Shown here piece by piece: positions 40,694-52,198 of a stretch of DNA of 60,869 bases (the stretch's first letter is position 1; each line of letters begins with the position of its first letter). Under the pieces are notes generated by a model. It saw only the letters and a program-made list of their open reading frames with translations, ran no database searches and was not told the origin of the DNA. The stretch is from positions 1 through 60,869 of the forward strand of contig JAGHUI010000005.1 of the NCBI GenBank assembly GCA_018064885.1, given 5' to 3'. A program made the position numbers and the translations under genes. The DNA is from Candidatus Minthosoma equi (lineage in GTDB: Bacteria > Bacteroidota > Bacteroidia > Bacteroidales > Bacteroidaceae).

Positions 40694-42547
40694 ATGGCTA
40701 TTAACAAAGAAAAACTCTTCTCTGAGTTCCAGGCCCCTACCACTGAAGAGTGGTTGGCAAAGATTGAGGTGGACCTCAAGGGCGCGGACTTCAACAAGAA
40801 GATGGTTTGGAGAACCAACGAAGGCTTCAACGTTCAGCCTTTCTATCGCCGCGAGGATAATGAAAACCTCAAGGCAGTGAACTCTCTCCCTGGCGAATTC
40901 CCATTCGTCCGTGGTAACAAAAAGGACAACAACCTTTGGTATGTTCGCCAGGACATTAGCGTTGAATGTCCTAAGGCTGCAAATGAGAAGGCTCTTGACG
41001 TTCTCAACAAGGGTGTTAACTCTCTTGGTTTCGATTTCGCTCCAGAGAAGGTCAGCAAAGAATTCATCGCAGAGCTCTTGAACGGCATCCTTCCACAGTA
41101 CATCGAACTTAACTTCACTACATGCCTCTGCAAGTCTGCAGAGCTTGCAAAGATTCTCGTTGAGTACTTCAAGGAGAACAACTATCCACTTGATCAGATT
41201 GAAGGCTCAATTAACTTCGATCCAATTGCAAAGATTCTCACTAAGGGTAAGGATAAGTCAGCAATGATCGCTGAAGGCAAGGCTCTTATTGAGGCTCTTG
41301 CAGAGCTTCCTAAGTTCAAGTGTATCAATGTAAATTCTGTAGCTCTTAACAACTGCGGTGCTTACATCTATCAGGAACTTGGCTACGCTCTCGCTTGGGG
41401 TGCTGAGTATCTTGAACAGCTCACAGCTGCTGGCGTTGATGCTACAGAAGTTGCTAAGCGCATTAAGTTCAACATGGGCGTTAGCGACAACTACTTCATG
41501 GAAATAGCTAAGTTCCGTGCTGCTCGTATGCTCTGGGCACAGATTGTTAAGCAGTATGAGCCAAAGTGCGACTGCGCTTGCAAGATGCACGTTTGCGCTT
41601 ACACTTCTGAATACAATCAGACAATCTTTGATTCATACGTTAACCTCCTCCGCTCACAGACAGAGGCTATGTCTGCTGCAATCGCAAATGTTGACTCTAT
41701 TGTTGTCGTACCATTCGACAAGCAGTATGAGACTCCAACAGACTTTGCTGAGCGTATTGCTCGCAACCAGCAGTTGCTCTTGAAGGAAGAGGCACACTTC
41801 GATAAGCTTGTTGACGTTGCTGGTGGCTCTTACACTATTGAGCACCTCACAGATGCTATCGCTCAGGAAGGCTGGAAGCTCTTCCTCGCTGTTGAGAACG
41901 CTGGCGGTTTCCTCGCAGAATCTCTCAACAGTAACATCCAGAATGCTGTCAATGCATCTAACAAGAAGCGTCACGAAGACACAGCTAAGCGTAAGGAGTT
42001 CATCCTTGGTACTAACCAGTTCCCTAACTTCACAGAGGTTTCTGAAGGTAAGCGCCCTGTTGCTCCTTGCTGCACATGCCAGGAAACTCCAGAAGGCGGC
42101 ATCCAGACTCTCTGCACTAACCGTATGGCTTCTGACTTCGAGAACCTCCGTTTTGCTACAGAAGGTGCTAAGAAGCAGCCAATCGCATTCATGCTCACTA
42201 TCGGTAATCTTGCTATGCGTCAGGCACGTGCACAGTTCTCTTGCAACTTCCTTGCTGCTGCTGGTTACAAGGTGATGGACAACCTTGGCTTCAAGACTGT
42301 AGAAGAAGGTGTTGATGCAGCTCTCGCAGCTGGTGCTGACATTGTGGTAATCTGTTCTTCTGATGACGAATATGCAGAGTACGCTATCCCTGCTTATCAG
42401 TACCTTAATGGTCGCGCAATGTTCGTTGTAGCCGGTGCACCTGCTTGTTCAGAAGACCTTAAGGCTGCAGGTATTGAGAACTTCATTAATGTTAAGTCTA
42501 ACCAGCTCAATACTCTCAAGGAGTACAATGCTAAACTCGGTATCTAA
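40694..42547 (+). CDS. mutA: Methylmalonyl-CoA mutase small subunit
   Basis: 617 residues. The N-terminal barrel-like domain has [35 protein letters not shown], a common mutase opening. The C-terminal B12-binding-like domain (about 480-617) lacks the cobalamin DxHxxG motif, as expected for the non-catalytic subunit. With MutB it interconverts succinyl-CoA and (R)-methylmalonyl-CoA in propionate formation. It ends 2 nt before mutB. Codon use is strongly biased, suggesting high expression. No chaperone meaB/argK gene follows. Confidence 0.95.
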
Positions 42548-42549
42548 TT

Positions 42550-44715
42550 ATGGCAAGAAAAGATTTTAATTCAATTGACATATATGCTGGCATTGCTGAG
42601 AAGAATGGTCAGCAGTGGCAGAAAGAGAATGGCATCAGCGCTAACTGGCGTACTCCAGAGCAGATTGACATTCAGCCAGTATATACAAAGGAAGACCTCG
42701 AAGGCATGGAGCACCTTGACTTCGCTGCAGGTATCCCTCCTTATCTCCGTGGTCCTTACTCAATGATGTACCCATTCCGTCCTTGGACAATCCGTCAGTA
42801 CGCAGGTTTCTCTACAGCTGAGGAGTCTAACGCATTCTATCGCCGTAATTTGGCTTCAGGACAGAAGGGTCTCTCTGTAGCATTCGACCTCCCTACTCAC
42901 CGTGGCTACGACCCAGACAATGCTCGTGTAGTTGGCGACGTTGGTAAGGCAGGTGTGTCTATCTGCTCACTCGAGAACATGAAGGTTCTCTTCGCTGGTA
43001 TTCCATTGAACAAGATGTCCGTTTCTATGACAATGAACGGTGGTGTGCTCCCAGTTCTTGCATTCTACATCAATGCAGGTCTTGAGCAGGGTGCTAAGCT
43101 TGAGGAGATGGCTGGTACTATCCAGAACGATATCCTTAAAGAGTTCATGGTTCGTAACACATATATTTACCCACCTGCATTCTCTATGAAGATCATCGCT
43201 GATATCTTCGAGTTCACTTCACAGAAGATGCCTAAGTTCAACTCAATCTCTATTTCTGGCTACCACATGCAGGAGGCTGGTGCAACAGCAGACATCGAGT
43301 TGGCTTACACACTCGCCGACGGTATGGACTACCTCCGCACAGGTGTGAATGCAGGTATCGACATCGACGCCTTCGCTCCTCGTCTCTCATTCTTCTGGGC
43401 TATCGGCATGAACCACTTCATGGAGATCGCTAAGATGCGTGCAGGTCGTCTTCTCTGGGCTAAGATCACTAAGTCGTTTGGTGCTAAGAACCCTAAGTCT
43501 ATGGCTCTTCGTACTCACTCACAGACATCAGGTTGGTCACTCACAGAGCAGGATCCATTCAACAACGTAGGCCGTGCTTGTATCGAGGCTATGGCTGCCG
43601 TTCTCGGTCACACTCAGTCACTTCATACAAACGCTCTTGACGAGGCAATCGCCCTCCCAACAGATTTCTCTGCACGTATCGCTCGTAACACTCAGATTTA
43701 CATCCAGAACGAGACTAAGGTCTGCAAGCAGATCGACCCATGGGCAGGTTCTTATTACGTAGAGACTCTCACAAATGAGCTCGTACACAAGGCATGGGAG
43801 CACATCCAGGAAATTGAGAAACTCGGCGGTATGGCTAAGGCTATCGAGACAGGTCTTCCTAAGATGCGTATCGAAGAGGCAGCTGCACGTACTCAGGCTC
43901 GTATTGACTCTGGCAACCAGACTATCGTTGGTACAAACAAGTATCGTCTTGCTCAGGAAGATCCATTGGATATCCTCGAAGTTGATAATACAGCAGTACG
44001 CCTCCAGCAGGAAGAGAACCTCAAAGTGCTCAAGGCAAACCGTGACGAAGCTGCTTGTCAGGCTGCTCTCGCTGAAATCACTAAGTGTGTTCAGGAGTTC
44101 CAGGACGGCAAGAAGTCAGAGAATAACCTCCTCGACCTCGCTGTCAAGGCTGCAGGTCTCCGTTGTACTCTCGGTGAGATTTCAGACGCTTGCGAGGCAG
44201 TCGTAGGTCGTTATAAGGCAATCATTAGAACAATCAGCAACGTGTATAGTTCAGAATCAAAGGGTGATCAGGCATTCCAGGATGCTTGCGCCTCAACAGA
44301 AAAGTTTGCACAGGCAAATGGTCGCCGTCCTCGTATCATGATCGCTAAGATGGGTCAGGATGGTCACGACCGTGGTGCTAAGGTTTGTGCTACAGGTTAT
44401 GCAGACTGTGGTTTCGACGTGGATATGGGTCCTCTCTTCCAGACTCCAGAAGAAGCTGCTCGTCAGGCTGTAGAGAATGACGTTGACGTACTCGGTGCTT
44501 CTTCACTTGCTGCAGGTCACAAGACTCTTATGCCTGCTGTTATCGAAGAACTCAAGAAGCTCGGTCGTGAGGATATCCTCGTAATCGGTGGTGGTGTAAT
44601 CCCAGCACAGGATTATGACTATCTCTACAAGGCAGGTGTCGCTGCGATCTTCGGCCCTGGTACTTCTGTTGCTAAGGCAGCATGCGAGATTATGAAGATT
44701 TTGAACGAGGATTAA
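42550..44715 (+). CDS. mutB: Methylmalonyl-CoA mutase large (catalytic) subunit
   Basis: 721 residues. The substrate barrel includes [24 protein letters not shown] and [34 protein letters not shown] follows. The C-terminal cobalamin domain has [12 protein letters not shown] (the DxHxxG His coordinates cobalt), [12 protein letters not shown] and VIGGGVIP. It requires adenosylcobalamin. Highly expressed codon style; the terminator is at 44766-44800. Confidence 0.97.
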
Positions 44716-44731
44716 TATTCCATTAAATTAT

Positions 44732-44753
44732 CTATGTGACATTTGTCGCATAG
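44732..44753. other. Short hairpin after mutB
   Basis: CTATGTGACA (44732-44741) pairs with TGTCGCATAG (44744-44753), one wobble, almost no loop. It stands 16 nt past the mutB stop and could protect the 3' end or slow transcription ahead of the terminator. Confidence 0.45.
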
Positions 44754-44765
44754 CAAAATACATCA

Positions 44766-44800
44766 AAGAGGCATAAGTTTCACGACTTATGTCTCTTTTC
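44766..44800 (+). terminator. Intrinsic terminator of the mutAB operon
   Basis: AGAGGCATAAGT (44767-44778) pairs with ACTTATGTCTCTT (from 44785), then TTTCTT. It separates mutAB from the DUF6057 operon. Confidence 0.8.
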
Positions 44801-44834
44801 TTATTTCTTATAGGTAAATATTATTAAAATTTTG

Positions 44835-44842
44835 TAACTTTG
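44835..44842 (+). promoter_or_regulatory. -7 element of the DUF6057 operon
   Basis: TAACTTTG, 49 nt before the start at 44892. The -33 region lacks a clear TTTG. Confidence 0.55.
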
Positions 44843-44891: not shown

Positions 44892-46856
44892 ATGGGAAAA
44901 AATACTTTCAAGAAACAGCCATCTGCAACAACGGCAAAGAAACCGTCTTTTGTTAGCAATGCACCAAAGCCTGAAAAGAAGAAAAAGAAGCCTTTTGTAA
45001 TATCTAAAGTTTTTTCTATTGTTTTGGCATGCATTTCTCTTCTATCATTTGGTGCATTAAATGCATATTACTTGATTGAAGAAAACTCGGATTTGCTTTT
45101 TACAGCCCAAAGCAAAGGATTCTTCTCTACCGATGATACATTCTTTGATCAATGCATAACTCAGCCAGGCGGTATCATCAATTATATTGCTGCATATCTC
45201 ACTCAAATGCTGTATCACCCAGCCCTAGGTGCTTCTATTTTGATAGCAATGTGGATGATCACTATAATCATTAGCAAATTTGCTTTCAAAGTCAAAACTA
45301 TGTGGATGGCTGTTCTCACAATCCCTGCAGTATGTTTACTTGTCGGAATTATTGATGTTCAGTACTGGGTGTTTTATCTTAAGCAGGAAGGATATTGGTT
45401 CTATGGAACAGTAGGTTTTCTTATCTGTATGTTGCTTGTGTTGCTTTCAAGAATTGCCAGCAATACGGTAACAAAATCCATTATAGTCGCTGCAATCGCG
45501 CTTACTTATCCTGCTTTTGGATGGTATTCTTTACTTGCTGCTATTTATAGTACTGTTAATTATTTACTTCAAGATAAAAAAACTAATACGAATATAATCA
45601 ACAAGATACTCCCATTAATAGTAATGTTTGTATTTGTATTTGCAGTACCTTATGCATCATATTATTTCTATCCAAGCGAATCTTTCATTGAAATGTGGGC
45701 ATGCGGATTTCCTTATTTCACAAGTGACACAGTAATAAGCATAATACCAGAGATTCCTTACTTCATTCTTGCCGCAATTCCTCTTATTTTCCCATTTATT
45801 TCCAAAGTTAAAGAAGCTGTTAATGGCATGGCTTTTGTTGTTATTTTAGCAACTGTAGCTATTGTCGGCGGTTCTGCATACTGGATTTCAAACAGCAACT
45901 TTGAGGATTACAACTATCATGCAGAAATGCGCATGCACAAGGCAGCAGAAGAGATGGATTGGGATAAAGTGCTCGACGAAATGAGCAATAATCCTGGTGA
46001 CGCATCACGTCAAATGGTTCTCTTGAAGAATGTTGCTTTGATGTATAAAGGCGAGATGGGTTCAAAAATGTTTAAGTACAATAACATGGGCGACAATCCA
46101 GCCAACACATACGATTCATTAAGAATTCACATGGCTCAAACTGCAGCTCCACTCATTTACTACTATCATGGCAAGACAAACTTCTCTATCCGTTGGTGTA
46201 TTGAGAACAGCGTAGAGTGTGGTTATGATTTTGAAAATTTGATGATGCTCACACGTTGTGCTATTCTTGGCAACGAAATGGATTGTGCAAAGAAATATAT
46301 CAATATACTTAAGACTTCTCTCTTTTACAAAGATTGGGCAGAGAAACTTGAACCAATTACTGAAAATCCTGAACTGATCAAAGAGTATCATGAGTTTGAC
46401 AACATTCGTGAGCTTAGAGATCATATGGGTAGCGTTCTTGATGGCGACAATGGTCTTTGCGAGATGTATCTGCTCAATTATTTTGCAAATACAATGAATA
46501 AGGATAGCAAGTATTTACAGGAATTGACACTCAACTATTCTATGGTTCAGAAGGATATAAAACTTTTCTGGCCACGCTTCTTCTTATATGCAAGCATGCA
46601 TCCGGGCGAAGATATGCCTGTTCACTACCAAGAAGCTGCTTTGCTTTATGGAAATCTTGAACCTGGTAATGTGGATATAAGCAAGATGCCATTTGATCAA
46701 TATGTAAAAGATCGTTATGCTAATTTCCAGCAAGTATCTCAATCACTTCTTGCTTCTGGAATGGAGGTTGCTGATGTGGGACAGTCTATGAAGACATCTT
46801 TTGGAGATACGTTCTTCTGGTTCTATTTCTTCTGTAGAGACATTCATTCTTATTAA
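44892..46856 (+). CDS. DUF6057-like membrane protein with soluble C-terminal domain (paralogue A)
   Basis: 654 residues. A basic, Lys/Pro-rich N-terminus (about 1-38) precedes about nine membrane segments (about 40-330), with LTQMLYHPALGASILIAMWM among the conserved stretches. The C-terminal ~310 residues are soluble and alpha-helical: HKAAEEMDWDKVLDEMSNN, LLKNVALM, then LAAPLIYYYHG-like and AKKYINILKTSLFYKDWAEK, arranged like degenerate TPR units. It ends in an aromatic-rich stretch (DTFFWFYFFCRDIHSY). The gene at 48460 is a clear shorter paralogue. Function unknown. First gene of a four-gene operon with a CxxCH lipoprotein and an S9 peptidase; the family name is from memory. Confidence 0.75.
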   Translation: MGKNTFKKQPSATTAKKPSFVSNAPKPEKKKKKPFVISKVFSIVLACISLLSFGALNAYYLIEENSDLLFTAQSKGFFSTDDTFFDQCITQPGGIINYIAAYLTQMLYHPALGASILIAMWMITIIISKFAFKVKTMWMAVLTIPAVCLLVGIIDVQYWVFYLKQEGYWFYGTVGFLICMLLVLLSRIASNTVTKSIIVAAIALTYPAFGWYSLLAAIYSTVNYLLQDKKTNTNIINKILPLIVMFVFVFAVPYASYYFYPSESFIEMWACGFPYFTSDTVISIIPEIPYFILAAIPLIFPFISKVKEAVNGMAFVVILATVAIVGGSAYWISNSNFEDYNYHAEMRMHKAAEEMDWDKVLDEMSNNPGDASRQMVLLKNVALMYKGEMGSKMFKYNNMGDNPANTYDSLRIHMAQTAAPLIYYYHGKTNFSIRWCIENSVECGYDFENLMMLTRCAILGNEMDCAKKYINILKTSLFYKDWAEKLEPITENPELIKEYHEFDNIRELRDHMGSVLDGDNGLCEMYLLNYFANTMNKDSKYLQELTLNYSMVQKDIKLFWPRFFLYASMHPGEDMPVHYQEAALLYGNLEPGNVDISKMPFDQYVKDRYANFQQVSQSLLASGMEVADVGQSMKTSFGDTFFWFYFFCRDIHSY

Positions 46857-46918
46857 CATTCAGAAGATTGAGCATAAAATATAGAATAATATACATTTAC
46901 ATCGAAATTTCTTGAACA

Positions 46919-48427
46919 ATGAAAATACTAAATATTCTTTCCACTATTGCTTTGGCTGCTTTACTCTTTGCATGCACATCTCATCCTTCTGTACCAAATG
47001 GTGCTCAGAAAGAAGCTCGTTTGCCAAAGATTTACCCTGATTATACTGATGTTACTATCCCTTCAAACATCTGTCCTTTGAATTTTGCCGTTCAAGAAGG
47101 AGCTGCTGAAGTTGTCGCTCGTTTTTCCTATCCAGGAGGTGAGCAGACATACGGTAAGGGTTCAAATGTTCTTATTGACGAAAGTGAATGGAAAGATATC
47201 CTTGCAGCAAGCAAGGGCAAATCTATTACTGTTGATGTTTTTGCAAATATCAATGGCTCTTGGAAGCAGTTCAACTCCTTCAAAATAAATGTTGCTGAGG
47301 AGGAAATAGATCAATACATCTCATATCGTCTCATCCAGCCATCATATGTGGCATACGAAAGTCTTACCATCAGTCAGCGTGACCTTACAAGTTTTGAAGA
47401 AAAGGTTATCTATAACAACATGTCTGTCAGCACAGAAGAGATGGGACAGTGTATAAACTGTCATTCATACCAGAACTATAAAACTGACCACATGCTTTTC
47501 CATATGCGTCAAGCACATGGAGGCACAATGATTGTCAATGATGGAAAACTAACAAAGGTTGACCTGAAGACTGATGAAACTATTAGCGCAGGTGTTTATC
47601 CAGCATGGCACCCAACAAAAAATTTCATTGCGTTCTCTACAAACAAGACAGGTCAGTCATTCCATACTAAAGATCTAGCAAAGATTGAAGTGCAGGATAC
47701 AGAGAGTGATCTCATTCTTTATGATGTAGATAAGAACGAAGTAAGCATTATTTCTGAACTTGATGATGAACTCGAGGTGTTCCCTACTTGGAGTCCTGAT
47801 GGTAAGAAACTGTATTTCTGTTCTGCCCATTTTGAATATCACAATGACAGCATTGCTAAGGAGACTGAAATGATCAATCGTTTCAAGGAGGTTAAGTACG
47901 ATCTTTATTGCGCTGACTTCAATCCTGATACAAAACAATTTAGCAATATGGAGAAGATTTATTGCGCTTCTGATACAGCAATCAATAAGAGTGCAACACT
48001 TCCACGAGTTAGTCCTGACGGACGCTATTTGTTGTTTGCTATCGCTGAGTTCGGATGCTTCCATGTATGGCATAATGATGCAGACATCATGCTCCTTGAC
48101 TTAAAGACAAAAGAAGTAAAAGCTTTGGATAATGTAAATAGCAACCGTTCAGAAAGCTACCCTACATGGTCAAGCAATGGACGCTGGATTATGGTGGATT
48201 CAAGACGTGATGACGGAAACTACACTCGACCATACATTGCATATTTTGATAAGAACGGAAAAACTCATAAAGCATTTGAACTTCCTCAGAAAGATCCAAA
48301 TTTTTATACATTCTTTGTTCGTTCATACAATCGTCCTGAATTCATGATTGAAGAAGTTAAGGTATCACCAAAAGAATTCACTTCAAAGGCTCTTGAAGAA
48401 CCGATAAAGGCAAAGTATGTAAAGTAA
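46919..48427 (+). CDS. TolB-like beta-propeller lipoprotein with a CxxCH haem-c motif
   Basis: 502 residues. Lipoprotein signal 1-19 (ALLFAC lipobox). An Ig-like N-terminal region is followed by C178-I-N-C181-H182, the classical covalent haem-attachment motif, in SVSTEEMGQCINCHSYQNY, then MLFHMRQAHGG with a Met and His as possible sixth ligand. From about 210 on, PD40/WD40-like blades repeat (AWHPTKNFIAFST, PTWSPDGKKLYFCSA, PRVSPDGRYLLFA, PTWSSNGRWIMVDS), as in TolB. So a mono-haem cytochrome may be fused to a propeller at the outer membrane or periplasm. It lies between two DUF6057 paralogues (62 and 32 nt gaps). Electron transfer or substrate sensing is inference. Confidence 0.78.
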   Translation: MKILNILSTIALAALLFACTSHPSVPNGAQKEARLPKIYPDYTDVTIPSNICPLNFAVQEGAAEVVARFSYPGGEQTYGKGSNVLIDESEWKDILAASKGKSITVDVFANINGSWKQFNSFKINVAEEEIDQYISYRLIQPSYVAYESLTISQRDLTSFEEKVIYNNMSVSTEEMGQCINCHSYQNYKTDHMLFHMRQAHGGTMIVNDGKLTKVDLKTDETISAGVYPAWHPTKNFIAFSTNKTGQSFHTKDLAKIEVQDTESDLILYDVDKNEVSIISELDDELEVFPTWSPDGKKLYFCSAHFEYHNDSIAKETEMINRFKEVKYDLYCADFNPDTKQFSNMEKIYCASDTAINKSATLPRVSPDGRYLLFAIAEFGCFHVWHNDADIMLLDLKTKEVKALDNVNSNRSESYPTWSSNGRWIMVDSRRDDGNYTRPYIAYFDKNGKTHKAFELPQKDPNFYTFFVRSYNRPEFMIEEVKVSPKEFTSKALEEPIKAKYVK

Positions 48428-48459
48428 TAATGTGAAGATGATTTGTAGTTGTTGAATCA

Positions 48460-49995
48460 ATGAAGCTAAACAAGTTACTACCACATATTTATGCTCTAAT
48501 CCTATTCATCACAGCAATGATTATGTTGCCTGTGATGAATAGTGATTATTTGTTTACCATTCAAGATAATAGTATCTTCATAAATGGACACACATTTATG
48601 AAAGATATGTTGGCTTATGAAGGTGGTTGGCTATTATGGGTTTCATGCTACCTTACTCAGTTCTTCTACCATCCATGGATAGGAAGTATTATACTCATTA
48701 TTATATGGATATTGAGTTATTATCTTCTATTGATTACTACAAGAATGTTCAAAAATAAATGGTGTTTTATTCTATTATTGCCATTTATATTTTTTCTTTA
48801 CAGCATCTTAAGTTACGGATATTGGATATATTACGTAAAGATACAAGGATACGTTTTCTACAATTCACTACTGTTCTTTATTTGTGTTGTATTAACATTG
48901 ATTATATGTGAGGCATTACGTCTCGTAAAGGTCAAGAAATTCAACATTATTACAGGAGCAATACTCTCATTGTGTTGTGTCATCTTTCACCTTTGCGGAA
49001 CCCTTTGGAATATAAGCAAAGCTAATGAGTTTAGCATAACAATGAGTGACGACAATTTTCATCACGAGCTCAGCATGTATAGAGCTATTGATGAAGGAAG
49101 ATATGAGGATGTTATAGAAGAAGCAAAGAACTTGAATAATGACCAACCAACCAACTTAATGGTCTTATTCAAGAATATTGCTTTAATGCATACAGACAGA
49201 TTGCCAGAAATGTTTCAAATAAATAATTGTGGCATTACTCCAAAAACAGACGATTCTTTGAAGATAAGAATTTCTCAGTTGGCAGCTCCGCTTATCTATT
49301 ATCAGTTCGGACAGATGAACTATGCATATCGCTGGGCAATGGAAAACTCAGTCAAGCATGGATTGAGCTTCAGAAATGTAAAGATAATGGCTTTAGCATC
49401 AATCTTTAATCAAGACTTTGCTGTTGCGGCAAAATATATAAACATTCTCAAACAGAGTGTCTATTATAGAGATTGGGCTTTCCTGCATGAACGCTGGATT
49501 CAGAGCAGCACAGACTTTATCCAAAGTCAAGAATATCAAACAATAGCACCACTGCTTAATGATGATATTAATGAATTAGATACTGATAATGGATTTTGTG
49601 AAAGATGGATTCTCGACCATTTCAGCAATATCTTAAATCCAACATCAGAGAAGTTAGAGGATTTGCTTATTTGCTCATCTTTATGGTCAACGGATGAATA
49701 TGCATTCTGTGTTCATTTCCACGATTACTATCAGAGACATAAAGACGAACATATTCCTGCTCTTTATCAAGAAGGAGCGTTGCTGCTTGGAAATGCACCA
49801 GAATCTCCAATTACATTATATAATTTCCCATTTGATGAAGAAATATCAATGAATTTCAATCAGTTTGTGATGGATTATAATGATTATAACAGCTCTGGAG
49901 CAGACAAACAGAAAATGATGAATCTGCTGAAAGAGCGGTATAGCGATACATTCTGGTTTTATTATTATTTTTACAATGATTTTAATATTTACTAA
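48460..49995 (+). CDS. DUF6057-like membrane protein (short paralogue B)
   Basis: 511 residues, visibly AT-rich codons. About five or six membrane segments in the first ~190 residues (for example LTQFFYHPWIGSIILIIIWIL, aligned to paralogue A), without its basic N-terminal tail and with fewer membrane helices. The soluble part keeps LMVLFKNIALMH, LAAPLIYYQFGQMNYAYRWAMENS and AAKYINILKQSVYYRDWAF at matching places, and the same aromatic end (DTFWFYYYFYNDFNIY). The two may form a heterodimer or be specialised duplicates. Function unknown. It is followed 11 nt later by the S9 peptidase. Confidence 0.72.
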   Translation: MKLNKLLPHIYALILFITAMIMLPVMNSDYLFTIQDNSIFINGHTFMKDMLAYEGGWLLWVSCYLTQFFYHPWIGSIILIIIWILSYYLLLITTRMFKNKWCFILLLPFIFFLYSILSYGYWIYYVKIQGYVFYNSLLFFICVVLTLIICEALRLVKVKKFNIITGAILSLCCVIFHLCGTLWNISKANEFSITMSDDNFHHELSMYRAIDEGRYEDVIEEAKNLNNDQPTNLMVLFKNIALMHTDRLPEMFQINNCGITPKTDDSLKIRISQLAAPLIYYQFGQMNYAYRWAMENSVKHGLSFRNVKIMALASIFNQDFAVAAKYINILKQSVYYRDWAFLHERWIQSSTDFIQSQEYQTIAPLLNDDINELDTDNGFCERWILDHFSNILNPTSEKLEDLLICSSLWSTDEYAFCVHFHDYYQRHKDEHIPALYQEGALLLGNAPESPITLYNFPFDEEISMNFNQFVMDYNDYNSSGADKQKMMNLLKERYSDTFWFYYYFYNDFNIY

Positions 49996-50006
49996 TTAGC
50001 TACAAT

Positions 50007-52145
50007 ATGAAAACATTACTAACACTTTCATTTCTTGCTGCATCTCTGTCAATGAATGCACAGGGAACAGTTCAAGATTACAAAAATGCTTTTGGCACAA
50101 GAGCTCTGTTTGCAAACAAAATGACAAACGGAAATGTTAGTGCTCATCCTAATCGTGAAGGCAATTTCAATTACTCTGTATTTAATGGCGAGAATAGCAC
50201 AATATGGTATGAAGTGAATTCAAAGACCGGCGAAAAAAAAGTCATTGCTGATCCAACTAAACGCACTACATTTAATTCAAGAAATCGCCGTCAAGGTGGG
50301 GATTCTCATCACTGGATGGAGGTTCGTGATGAGAAAGATGGAAGAGCAGAATCACCTGTTAATAAGAATATGAGTATTATTCATAAAAACAATAATCTCT
50401 ATCTTCACAACAGAGAAACAAAAGAAGATAATCAATTGACCACAGATGGTGTTGACACATGCTACTACTCTTCATGGGGATCATGGTCTGAAGATGGAAA
50501 GTATTATGCTACAGTACTTATTAAACCAGCTCCAAAACATTATGTAACATACACTCTTTCTTCTCCAACTGATCAAGTACAGCCAAAATATTCTAACCAA
50601 GAATATGCAAAGCCTGGTGATTCCTTGAATTACCGCATTCCTGTTGTTGTAGATGTGGAAGGAAAGAAAACCATCTATCCGAAGTCAACAGCTCTTTTTG
50701 CTTCTCAATATAGCGTTGATGCACCTCGCTGGGATGAAGGAGGAAAGACTCTTACTTTTGAATTCAATGAACGTGGTCATAAGACATACCGTGTTCTTGA
50801 AATGGATCTACAAGGTAATGTGCGCACTCTTATAGAAGAGAAGAATGATAAGTATGTAGCTTATTCCCGCAATCTCCGTCGCGACCTTGATGCTCAGCAT
50901 ATTCTTTGGAAGAGTGATCGCGATGGACATGCACATCTGTATATTTACAATAGAAAGAATGGCAAACTCACACAAGTTACAAAGGGTGATTATTGGGTTC
51001 GCGGTGTTCAGCATGCCGAAATTGACGAGAAAGGTAAAGGATACATAATCTTCTCTGCTAATGGAATGAATTGCAAGAATATGGGAGTTGTTGCATCAAG
51101 TTTTGATGGTAAGATAGCAGCAGAAGATCCATATAATGTTCATTATTACCGCATTAATCTCGATGGTAAGAACCTTGTCTGTCTCACACCAGCTCGTGGC
51201 AATCATAGCATCACCTTGAATGAAGATCGCACTTCGCTCATTGACGTTTATTCTTCAATTGATCAGGCTCCTATTACTGAACTTCGTTCCGCTATAGACG
51301 GTAAACTTATCAGCACACTTGAAACAGCGAATACTGATAAGCTTACTGCTACAGGTTGGAGTGCCCCTGAAGTGTTTGTTGCTCCAGGTCGTGATGGAAA
51401 GACAGATATGTGGGGCATAATTCAGCGCCCACGTAATTTTGATCCGAACAAGAAATATCCTGTAATTGAATATATTTACTCAGGTCCAGGCGATCAGTAT
51501 GTTCCTAAGTCATTCACTCCATGGTTGTGGAATCTTGCAGATCTTGCAGAACTTGGATTTATCGTTGTTCAGCTTGATGCTATGACAACATCATTCCGTT
51601 CGCTTGATTTTGAACAAGTATGTTATAAGAATTTGAAAGACAGCGGTTTCCCGGATCGTATAGAATGGATTAAGGCTGCAGCAAAGAAATATCCTTATAT
51701 GGACATTGACCGTATGGGTATTTACGGTTGTTCTGCTGGTGGACAAGAAGCCCTCGGTGCCCTACTCTTCCATCCTGAATTCTACAAAGCAGGTTATGCT
51801 GCATGCGGTTGCCATGATAACCGTATGGATAAGATTTGGTGGAATGAACAATGGATGGGTTATCCAATTGATAAGTCATACGAAGAATGTTCTAATGTTG
51901 TTAATGCAAAGAATTTGAAAGGAAAGCTTATGCTCGTTGTAGGTGAGATGGATGATAATGTTGATCCTTCATCAAGTTATCAGGTTGTCAATGCCTTGCA
52001 GAAAGCAAACAAAGACTTTGAATTCATACTTATTCCAGGTGCTCATCACACAATGGGAGAAACTTATGGAGAGCACAAACGATATGATTTCTTTGTGAAG
52101 AACCTGCTTGGTGTTGAACCACCTGCTTGGTCTTCTTTCGAATAA
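50007..52145 (+). CDS. Secreted S9 (prolyl oligopeptidase/DPP IV-like) peptidase
   Basis: 712 residues. Signal peptide 1-19 (LSFLAASLSMNAQG). A beta-propeller domain (about 40-440) precedes the alpha/beta-hydrolase domain (about 450-712): Ser576 in GIYGCSAGGQEALG, Asp in VVGEMDDNVDP, His in IPGAHHTMGETYG. The nucleophile motif is GCSAGG rather than the GWSYGG of classical DPP IV, so its specificity may differ. Likely periplasmic peptide cleavage. It is the fourth gene of the DUF6057 operon, ending at a strong terminator (52157-52188), so it is a real member of the unit. Confidence 0.88.
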   Translation: MKTLLTLSFLAASLSMNAQGTVQDYKNAFGTRALFANKMTNGNVSAHPNREGNFNYSVFNGENSTIWYEVNSKTGEKKVIADPTKRTTFNSRNRRQGGDSHHWMEVRDEKDGRAESPVNKNMSIIHKNNNLYLHNRETKEDNQLTTDGVDTCYYSSWGSWSEDGKYYATVLIKPAPKHYVTYTLSSPTDQVQPKYSNQEYAKPGDSLNYRIPVVVDVEGKKTIYPKSTALFASQYSVDAPRWDEGGKTLTFEFNERGHKTYRVLEMDLQGNVRTLIEEKNDKYVAYSRNLRRDLDAQHILWKSDRDGHAHLYIYNRKNGKLTQVTKGDYWVRGVQHAEIDEKGKGYIIFSANGMNCKNMGVVASSFDGKIAAEDPYNVHYYRINLDGKNLVCLTPARGNHSITLNEDRTSLIDVYSSIDQAPITELRSAIDGKLISTLETANTDKLTATGWSAPEVFVAPGRDGKTDMWGIIQRPRNFDPNKKYPVIEYIYSGPGDQYVPKSFTPWLWNLADLAELGFIVVQLDAMTTSFRSLDFEQVCYKNLKDSGFPDRIEWIKAAAKKYPYMDIDRMGIYGCSAGGQEALGALLFHPEFYKAGYAACGCHDNRMDKIWWNEQWMGYPIDKSYEECSNVVNAKNLKGKLMLVVGEMDDNVDPSSSYQVVNALQKANKDFEFILIPGAHHTMGETYGEHKRYDFFVKNLLGVEPPAWSSFE

Positions 52146-52156
52146 TACATTTAAGT

Positions 52157-52188
52157 TCCGTGTGGTAAAAAAGCCACACGGACTTTTT
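52157..52188 (+). terminator. Intrinsic terminator of the DUF6057/S9 operon
   Basis: CCGTGTGG (52158-52165) pairs with CCACACGG (52174-52181), followed by ACTTTTT. It defines the right edge of the operon. Confidence 0.88.
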
Positions 52189-52198
52189 CATACACAAT

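Follow-up and report, generated by a model that had tools for sequence, protein, structure and literature searches.

Four open reading frames (ORFs) of 654, 502, 511 and 712 amino acids follow each other on the forward strand of contig JAGHUI010000005.1 of the Bacteroidales bacterium Candidatus Minthosoma equi, and the question raised by this locus is whether the four genes, here termed A, B, C and D, constitute one functional system. The window is the whole stretch of DNA analysed, positions 1 to 60,869 of the contig (60,869 nucleotides, assembly GCA_018064885.1). The initial annotation of the locus had proposed an envelope complex, in which a membrane pair is coupled to a redox or binding propeller and to peptide cleavage. 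We found that the conserved unit is not the quartet. It is the pair formed by A, a membrane protein of the Pfam family DUF6057 (PF19529), and B, a propeller lipoprotein; the quartet is a clade-limited local extension of this pair. The four genes and the intergenic gaps of 62, 32 and 11 nucleotides are as initially annotated:

44892-46856, + strand: gene A, DUF6057 membrane protein with a predicted all-helical C-terminal half (Pfam, conservation, AlphaFold model)
46919-48427, + strand: gene B, predicted lipoprotein (Cys19) with an N-terminal beta domain and a TolB-like propeller
47450-47464, + strand: CINCH motif of the haem-attachment type, B residues 178-182 (invariance among B proteins)
48460-49995, + strand: gene C, shortened DUF6057 paralogue (Pfam, tree, alignment to A)
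50007-52145, + strand: gene D, S9-family serine hydrolase with a signal peptide-like start (Pfam, alignment of catalytic regions)

When GTDB genomes were scanned with B, 40 loci with 42 B ORFs were obtained. A DUF6057 gene lies immediately 5′ of B, on the same strand, in 38 of the 42 cases. The remaining four B ORFs are at the edge of the available DNA: three at contig ends (L018, L044 and L047, of which L018 carries a DUF6057 fragment despite the contig end), and one as the second B of its locus, at the edge of the DNA retrieved around it (L030). All 22 B genes of a further set of 20 loci, consisting of 18 genomes from the order's other families and two loci of a genome of the window's own family (G010), adjoin a DUF6057 match. 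In loci chosen by DUF6057 (L054-L077), B is within 1 kb of 30 of the 34 DUF6057 genes, for three of the 30 on the opposite strand only.

The complete order A-B-C-D was found in 7 of the 40 B loci (L015, L016, L017, L019, L020, L021 and L022), with D extending into the contig end in L016. In these quartets gene B is 63-71% identical to that of the window (best tblastn segment), and such a recurrence exceeds what chance would give. L014 is cut inside C. D stands immediately 3′ of B in L018 and L077, and at the remaining B-chosen loci, quartets, L014 and L018 aside, it is not in reach. Because A and B are nearly always together and C and D occur in few loci, the pair is the unit. The recurrence of all four genes expected by the initial annotation was thus borne out for A and B, whereas C with D are confined to seven of the 40 B loci and the window, and a coupling to peptide cleavage would not be general.

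Of 121 genomes sampled from the window's family, 109 have a DUF6057 match above the cut-off, and the window's genome contains four more B genes and several more DUF6057 genes, some adjoining each other. In the genome sets of the family and the order B was counted at E 1e-30 or better. In the search of the order up to 10 first-look candidates were scored per genome, and some B genes may have been missed; a repeated search of seven genomes without B at E 1e-6 gave a single weak match (G020, 29 bits). The pair is apparently a widespread two-gene envelope module, undescribed in the literature searched.

A and B also diverge together. The correlation of their distance matrices is r = 0.962 over 84 pairs. 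When partners were re-paired at random within genomes, among the paralogues of the 10 genomes or loci holding more than one A-B pair, r never exceeded 0.936 in 1000 trials. Within-genome shuffles retain the species history, therefore species history alone cannot explain the correlation. Paralogous A-B pairs thus appear to be specific partners, which may be in physical contact.

How might such a pair work? We give an even chance to an envelope complex, in which a helical, probably periplasmic domain of A holds B, probably as a c-type, TolB-like propeller. A would be an inner-membrane protein, whose all-helical C-terminal half is probably TPR-like (tetratricopeptide repeat) and periplasmic. B would be exported, most likely unfolded, would then receive one covalent haem from a CcsBA-type synthase, and would, once loaded, be retained by A through its helical domain. 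In the lineage of the window A would have been duplicated in tandem, C keeping the soluble half and losing several membrane helices, probably to become a second docking arm, and the addition of D would link peptide trimming to the complex.

B matches Pfam PD40 at 58.1 bits, and its CINCH motif begins at residue 178. The motif, in the form C-x-N-C-H, is present in 97 of 97 B ORFs longer than 300 amino acids; C178, N180, C181 and H182 are invariant in all 96 aligned sequences. Residues 2-18 form a helix, and the lipobox cysteine is found in 95 of the 96, in line with the envelope location and the TolB-like lipoprotein with a haem-type motif first annotated. Acidic residues after the lipid-bearing cysteine act as a surface-export signal. 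None of the 95 lipobox proteins has more than two acidic residues among the five positions following the cysteine, and B therefore probably faces the periplasm.

The AlphaFold model of B (mean predicted local distance difference test score, pLDDT, 91.3) has a propeller fold, which superposes on the propeller of TolB. Structural neighbours were taken from the chains listed by VIA-align, where omission of a chain is not evidence of absence. The TolB of the Tol-Pal system shares 14-17% identity with B in the structural comparison; unlike TolB, B is a lipoprotein, carries C-x-N-C-H and has a DUF6057 neighbour. Orthology to TolB was rejected, as B scored 44 bits with TIGR02800 against a curated cut-off of 343. 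A chain of hydrazine synthase (5c2v_A) is 14% identical to B; in that subunit the haems sit outside the propeller, and the shared fold shows no function. Foldseek by itself ranked acylaminoacyl-peptidases first for B, with TM-scores of 0.25-0.38. B resembles the c-type cytochromes that depend on CcsBA for maturation (System II) in being exported with a CxxCH motif, but differs from them in that it has no cytochrome family match and that its motif is modelled in a beta hairpin. The literature on hydrazine synthase and, for Bacteroidetes or Prevotella, on c-type cytochromes, propellers, polysaccharide utilisation loci, TolB-like lipoproteins and CcsBA (including PMC10663686, PMC6299221 and PMC3655542) added little.

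If B carries haem, its genomes should encode an attachment machinery. We searched for the haem-attachment family PF01578 in two sets. In the order set (149 genomes) it is present in 19 of 19 genomes with B and in 102 of 130 without B above cut-off. The family set comprised 45 genomes, chosen from the 121 according to DUF6057, which was absent from 10, weak in 8 and present in 27, and here PF01578 is present in 26 of 27 genomes with B and in 12 of 18 lacking it. In the sets combined, 44 of 45 genomes with B have PF01578. The 45th, G010, is cut by a contig end: a DHOR gene is followed by a CcsBA-like ORF, which runs into the end. Fisher's test gave p = 0.0012 with G010 counted as a miss and p = 0.00013 with G010 counted as present. 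The WWD motif is found in the PF01578 genes inspected, the cut G010 gene excepted; the check for this motif and for ResB covered these few loci only.

The other clients of the machinery that we searched for in the family set were NrfA (11 of 45 genomes; 4 of the 27 with B), CCP (CCP_MauG; 5 of 34 searched, 4 of 23 searched genomes with B) and DHOR (25 of 37 searched; 21 of the 27 with B). With B, four client types were covered, and further client families are possible. In G003, G015 and G019 B is the sole one of the four types, yet PF01578 is present, and no CxxCH ORF was found near these PF01578 genes. Six genomes without B, NrfA, CCP and DHOR have no PF01578 match above cut-off (p = 0.012, with small numbers).

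That B is the sole client of the fused CcsBA was considered and rejected: the long fused CcsBA genes inspected in G000, G012, G107, G006 and G074, and the cut one in G010, stand beside DHOR, so that only G003, G015 and G019 bear on the sole-client question. The window's genome illustrates the arrangement in L101 (G000:C38, 3672-10485), where the gene of a fused CcsBA is clustered with those of a di-haem protein of the DHOR family, an imelysin-like lipoprotein and a 488-residue protein without Pfam match. Acidic residues follow the lipid cysteine of this DHOR lipoprotein, unlike in B. CcsBA is next to DHOR again in L103, L106, L107 and L108, and is cut in L111. A second haem-attachment gene of the same genome, a compact ResB-CcsA fusion of 388 residues, is at L102 (G000:C70, 7578-8744), in a stretch with no CxxCH ORF of 90 amino acids or more.

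Several observations weigh against the haem-carrying complex. The model of B, which was built without haem, has a beta strand at residues 179-185 and its hairpin partner at 188-196 (pLDDT by block 72 for 171-180 and 94 for 181-190). In haem sites the CxxCH usually forms a helical turn and faces an axial ligand on the opposite side. The base rate of PF01578 is high (114 of 146 genomes without B), the genomes are related, and the family covers System I proteins too (E. coli was among the controls). Most family genomes with B hold another client, NrfA, CCP or DHOR, and the long fused CcsBA of the window's genome adjoins a DHOR gene. In the membrane part of DUF6057 (41 members) no His or Cys reaches 70% conservation, which makes DUF6057 unlike an electron-transfer partner. 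Finally, four DUF6057 ORFs have no B in reach (L056, L057, L060 and L063).

Because of the hairpin geometry we regard a covalent c-type haem on B as only somewhat more likely than not, and we keep as its main rival a structural metal or thiol site. In this rival, which we hold to be a genuine but minority possibility, C-x-N-C-H would form a zinc-knuckle-like site in the hairpin (strand 179-185 with partner 188-196) together with His195, 231, 249 or 385, and A-B would be a non-redox binding or assembly complex. These four histidines are conserved, each in 85-92 of the 96 aligned B proteins and all four jointly in 74, and no cytochrome family was found among the 18 Pfam families matched by 33 B members at E 0.1. 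A metal site does not explain as readily why the whole C-x-N-C-H is invariant, beyond C-x-x-C, or why PF01578 is present in every genome with B that was examined (G010 being cut), including the three without other searched clients. A redox nature of the A-B module is likely, and the module may serve electron transfer or sensing; the redox propeller initially suggested agrees with the motif and with the co-occurring attachment genes and is at odds with the modelled geometry.

A and C match DUF6057 at 273.8 and 212.9 bits, far above the gathering cut-off of 29.8, which substantiates their annotation as paralogues. Pfam gives no described function for DUF6057, and neither DUF6057 nor PF19529 is named by any paper in the literature searched, in accord with the earlier statement that no pathway of this kind is described. 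The AlphaFold model of A (pLDDT 93.1; predicted TM-score, pTM, 0.90) consists essentially of helices: membrane helices up to residue 335, then short helices from 340 to 647. The first two long helices, 39-64 and 110-132, enclose three others, at 66-74, 82-88 and 94-108. Among the columns conserved in at least 90% of 67 members, A382, G427, A466, Y469, L473, A483, F559 and E581 belong to the C-terminal half; the membrane half contributes F78 and G113, and the N-terminus M1. As most of them are in the C-terminal half, we would place the contact with B there. This half is probably a TPR-like periplasmic domain. A sequence search of the PDB with A gave a best E of 1.4 (Stress-induced-phosphoprotein 1); in a Pfam scan of 41 DUF6057 members no other family was matched by more than two, and the weak matches to A were uninformative. 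A haem-b quinol oxidase was tried as a candidate for DUF6057 and rejected, because its membrane part has no His at 70% conservation.

Two further interpretations concern the role of DUF6057. DUF6057 may be a dedicated maturation factor or chaperone, which presents apo-B to the synthase or keeps B until it is lipidated; TPR proteins of the CcmI/NrfG type serve other cytochromes in this way. Such a role, which we think improbable, is compatible with A being directly 5′ of B and co-diverging with it, and with the series of short helices in the C-terminal half, with one weak TPR match (E 1.4). However, B is missing beside some DUF6057 genes, and neither the extensive membrane part nor its conserved loop would be needed by a chaperone. 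The other interpretation is a membrane enzyme or transporter of the GT-C glycosyltransferase type, with B as its binding or regulatory subunit. In the model of A the first two membrane helices are joined by a long helical loop and a helical domain comes after the membrane part, few membrane parts are as well conserved as the loop motif PGG...LTQFFY, and paralogous pairs neighbour SusD-like, TonB plug and glycoside hydrolase genes. In GT-C glycosyltransferases an acidic residue of the first periplasmic loop is conserved. An Asp and a Glu of the loop each attain 50% in the narrower, 41-member set, but no acidic loop residue reaches 70% there or half of the 67, and DUF6057 is the sole Pfam family matched by more than two of the 41. 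We consider this the least probable of the explanations weighed here.

To return to the proposed complex of A with B, C differs from A by missing part of the membrane region. Aligned to A, it is without residues 4-41, 197-232, 241-290 and 303-320, and retains the soluble half; between residues 197 and 320 of A it keeps just two short pieces, by which several membrane helices are gone. Hydropathy predicts five membrane segments for C, and its soluble half would be periplasmic if the N-terminus is inside. A maximum-likelihood tree, built from 59 DUF6057 proteins, groups the quartet A proteins, eight in number, in one clade and the eight quartet C proteins in another, adjoining one; the joint clade has support of 100/99 and includes one extra protein (L065) on the A side. 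Tree and alignment indicate that C arose through tandem duplication of A and then lost membrane helices. C is therefore a shortened duplicate, not an equal partner of A, which corrects the membrane pair initially annotated.

Short DUF6057 proteins of 504-512 amino acids, paired with B and belonging to another clade, were also seen in L045 (613-2127), L046 (3782-5299) and L053 (8437-9975), which suggests a second, independent shortening. The B-less DUF6057 genes of L057 (6958-8127) and L060 (9863-11680) lie directly 3′ of a gene that we take, from its sequence, to be similar to glycogen branching enzyme; two CBM_48/Alpha-amylase genes were counted among the neighbours of L054-L077. These two DUF6057 genes possibly represent a separate solitary subfamily.

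D matches Peptidase_S9 at 147.2 bits and DPPIV_N at 100.7 bits, and its GCSAGG begins at residue 574, which confirms the secreted S9 peptidase with this nucleophile motif. The catalytic Ser576 is found in 9 of 9 members, and the regions of Asp649/650/653 and His681 in 8 of 9, those that reach these positions. D is likely a soluble secreted periplasmic hydrolase of the S9 family that cuts peptides. It shares the DPPIV_N and S9 domains and the Ser/Asp/His regions with enzymes of the dipeptidyl aminopeptidase IV type (2d5l, 5yp1). In dipeptidyl peptidase IV (S9B) a Glu-Glu motif binds the peptide N-terminus. Within residues 60-300 of D the sole Glu-Glu is at 277, which leaves 60-276 without one, and YYSSW is near the expected place. 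D differs from 2d5l and 5yp1 in this respect, so that dipeptidyl-aminopeptidase specificity is unsupported, and D was rejected as a proven dipeptidyl peptidase IV.

The scarcity of C and D raises the possibility that only A and B are functional, with C a decaying duplicate and D a passenger on the shared promoter. Most A-B pairs are without both genes, which were seen together in the window and in 7 of the 40 B loci. However, C and D are ORFs in the complete quartets, the D proteins of six quartets are 73-80% identical to that of the window (L022 is outside the alignment), and C forms one clade that branches parallel to A. We consider the passenger explanation unlikely, and D may be tied to the complex where the quartet is present.

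The arrangement of A, B, C and D is that of a single transcription unit, as deduced from the layout and the following flanking elements:

44765-44798, + strand: intrinsic terminator of the preceding gene, where the unit is bounded on its left side; stem of 15 pairs, fold z -7.5 (44716-44810)
44835-44842, + strand: TAACTTTG, possible -7 promoter box, by position only
52157-52182, + strand: intrinsic terminator, right boundary of the unit; 10-pair stem, z -6.5 (52146-52198)

A terminator scan found seven terminator-like sites, none of them inside the gaps separating the four genes, and the one-unit layout with a strong terminator at its end was thereby upheld. The -7 box proposed upstream fared less clearly. 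TAACTTTG at 44835 fits in position and may represent the Bacteroidetes -7 box, but the pattern TANNTTTG occurs 40 times in the window against a shuffle mean of 42.1, which is no enrichment, and it is the position that speaks for the box. The two ORFs 5′ of the unit (window 40694-44715) look, from their sequences, like methylmalonyl-CoA mutase, one like its small subunit and the other like its large one.

The surroundings of other pairs were surveyed in two sets, which together took in 158 of the 219 neighbours; long proteins were truncated to 420 amino acids. Among the L054-L077 neighbours SusD-like proteins (9 of 79), TonB plug domains (6) and glycoside hydrolases were found, as raw counts. 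The L014-L053 neighbours contained Glyco_hydro_43 (6 of 79), AhpC-TSA/redoxin (4) and other families, and SusD-like was not among the best 25 of 82 families. In seven loci a small DUF4369-like lipoprotein gene stands directly before A, 5′ of DUF6057:

L058, 9191-9760
L062, 6345-6908
L064, 6423-7076
L066, 12053-12634
L089, 3365-3955
L092, 5413-6012
L052, 10287-10952

At these seven loci the DUF4369-like lipoprotein is a possible third component of the module.

The pairing links DUF6057 to a near-obligate partner with an invariant haem-type motif, by which two dark families become one testable system, and the haem-attachment genes of gut Bacteroidales gain a likely extra client. More speculatively, B may represent a new class of c-type cytochromes, with a single haem on C-x-N-C-H in a propeller beta hairpin and with a DUF6057 receptor of its own for each B; Bacteroidales would then have multiplied the pair beside nutrient-acquisition genes (SusC/SusD-like, glycoside hydrolases, S9 peptidase) as interchangeable envelope redox units. 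We regard this wider proposal as rather unlikely. In Bacteroidales anaerobes few periplasmic cytochromes are known, and B, if it is a cytochrome, would add one to these organisms.

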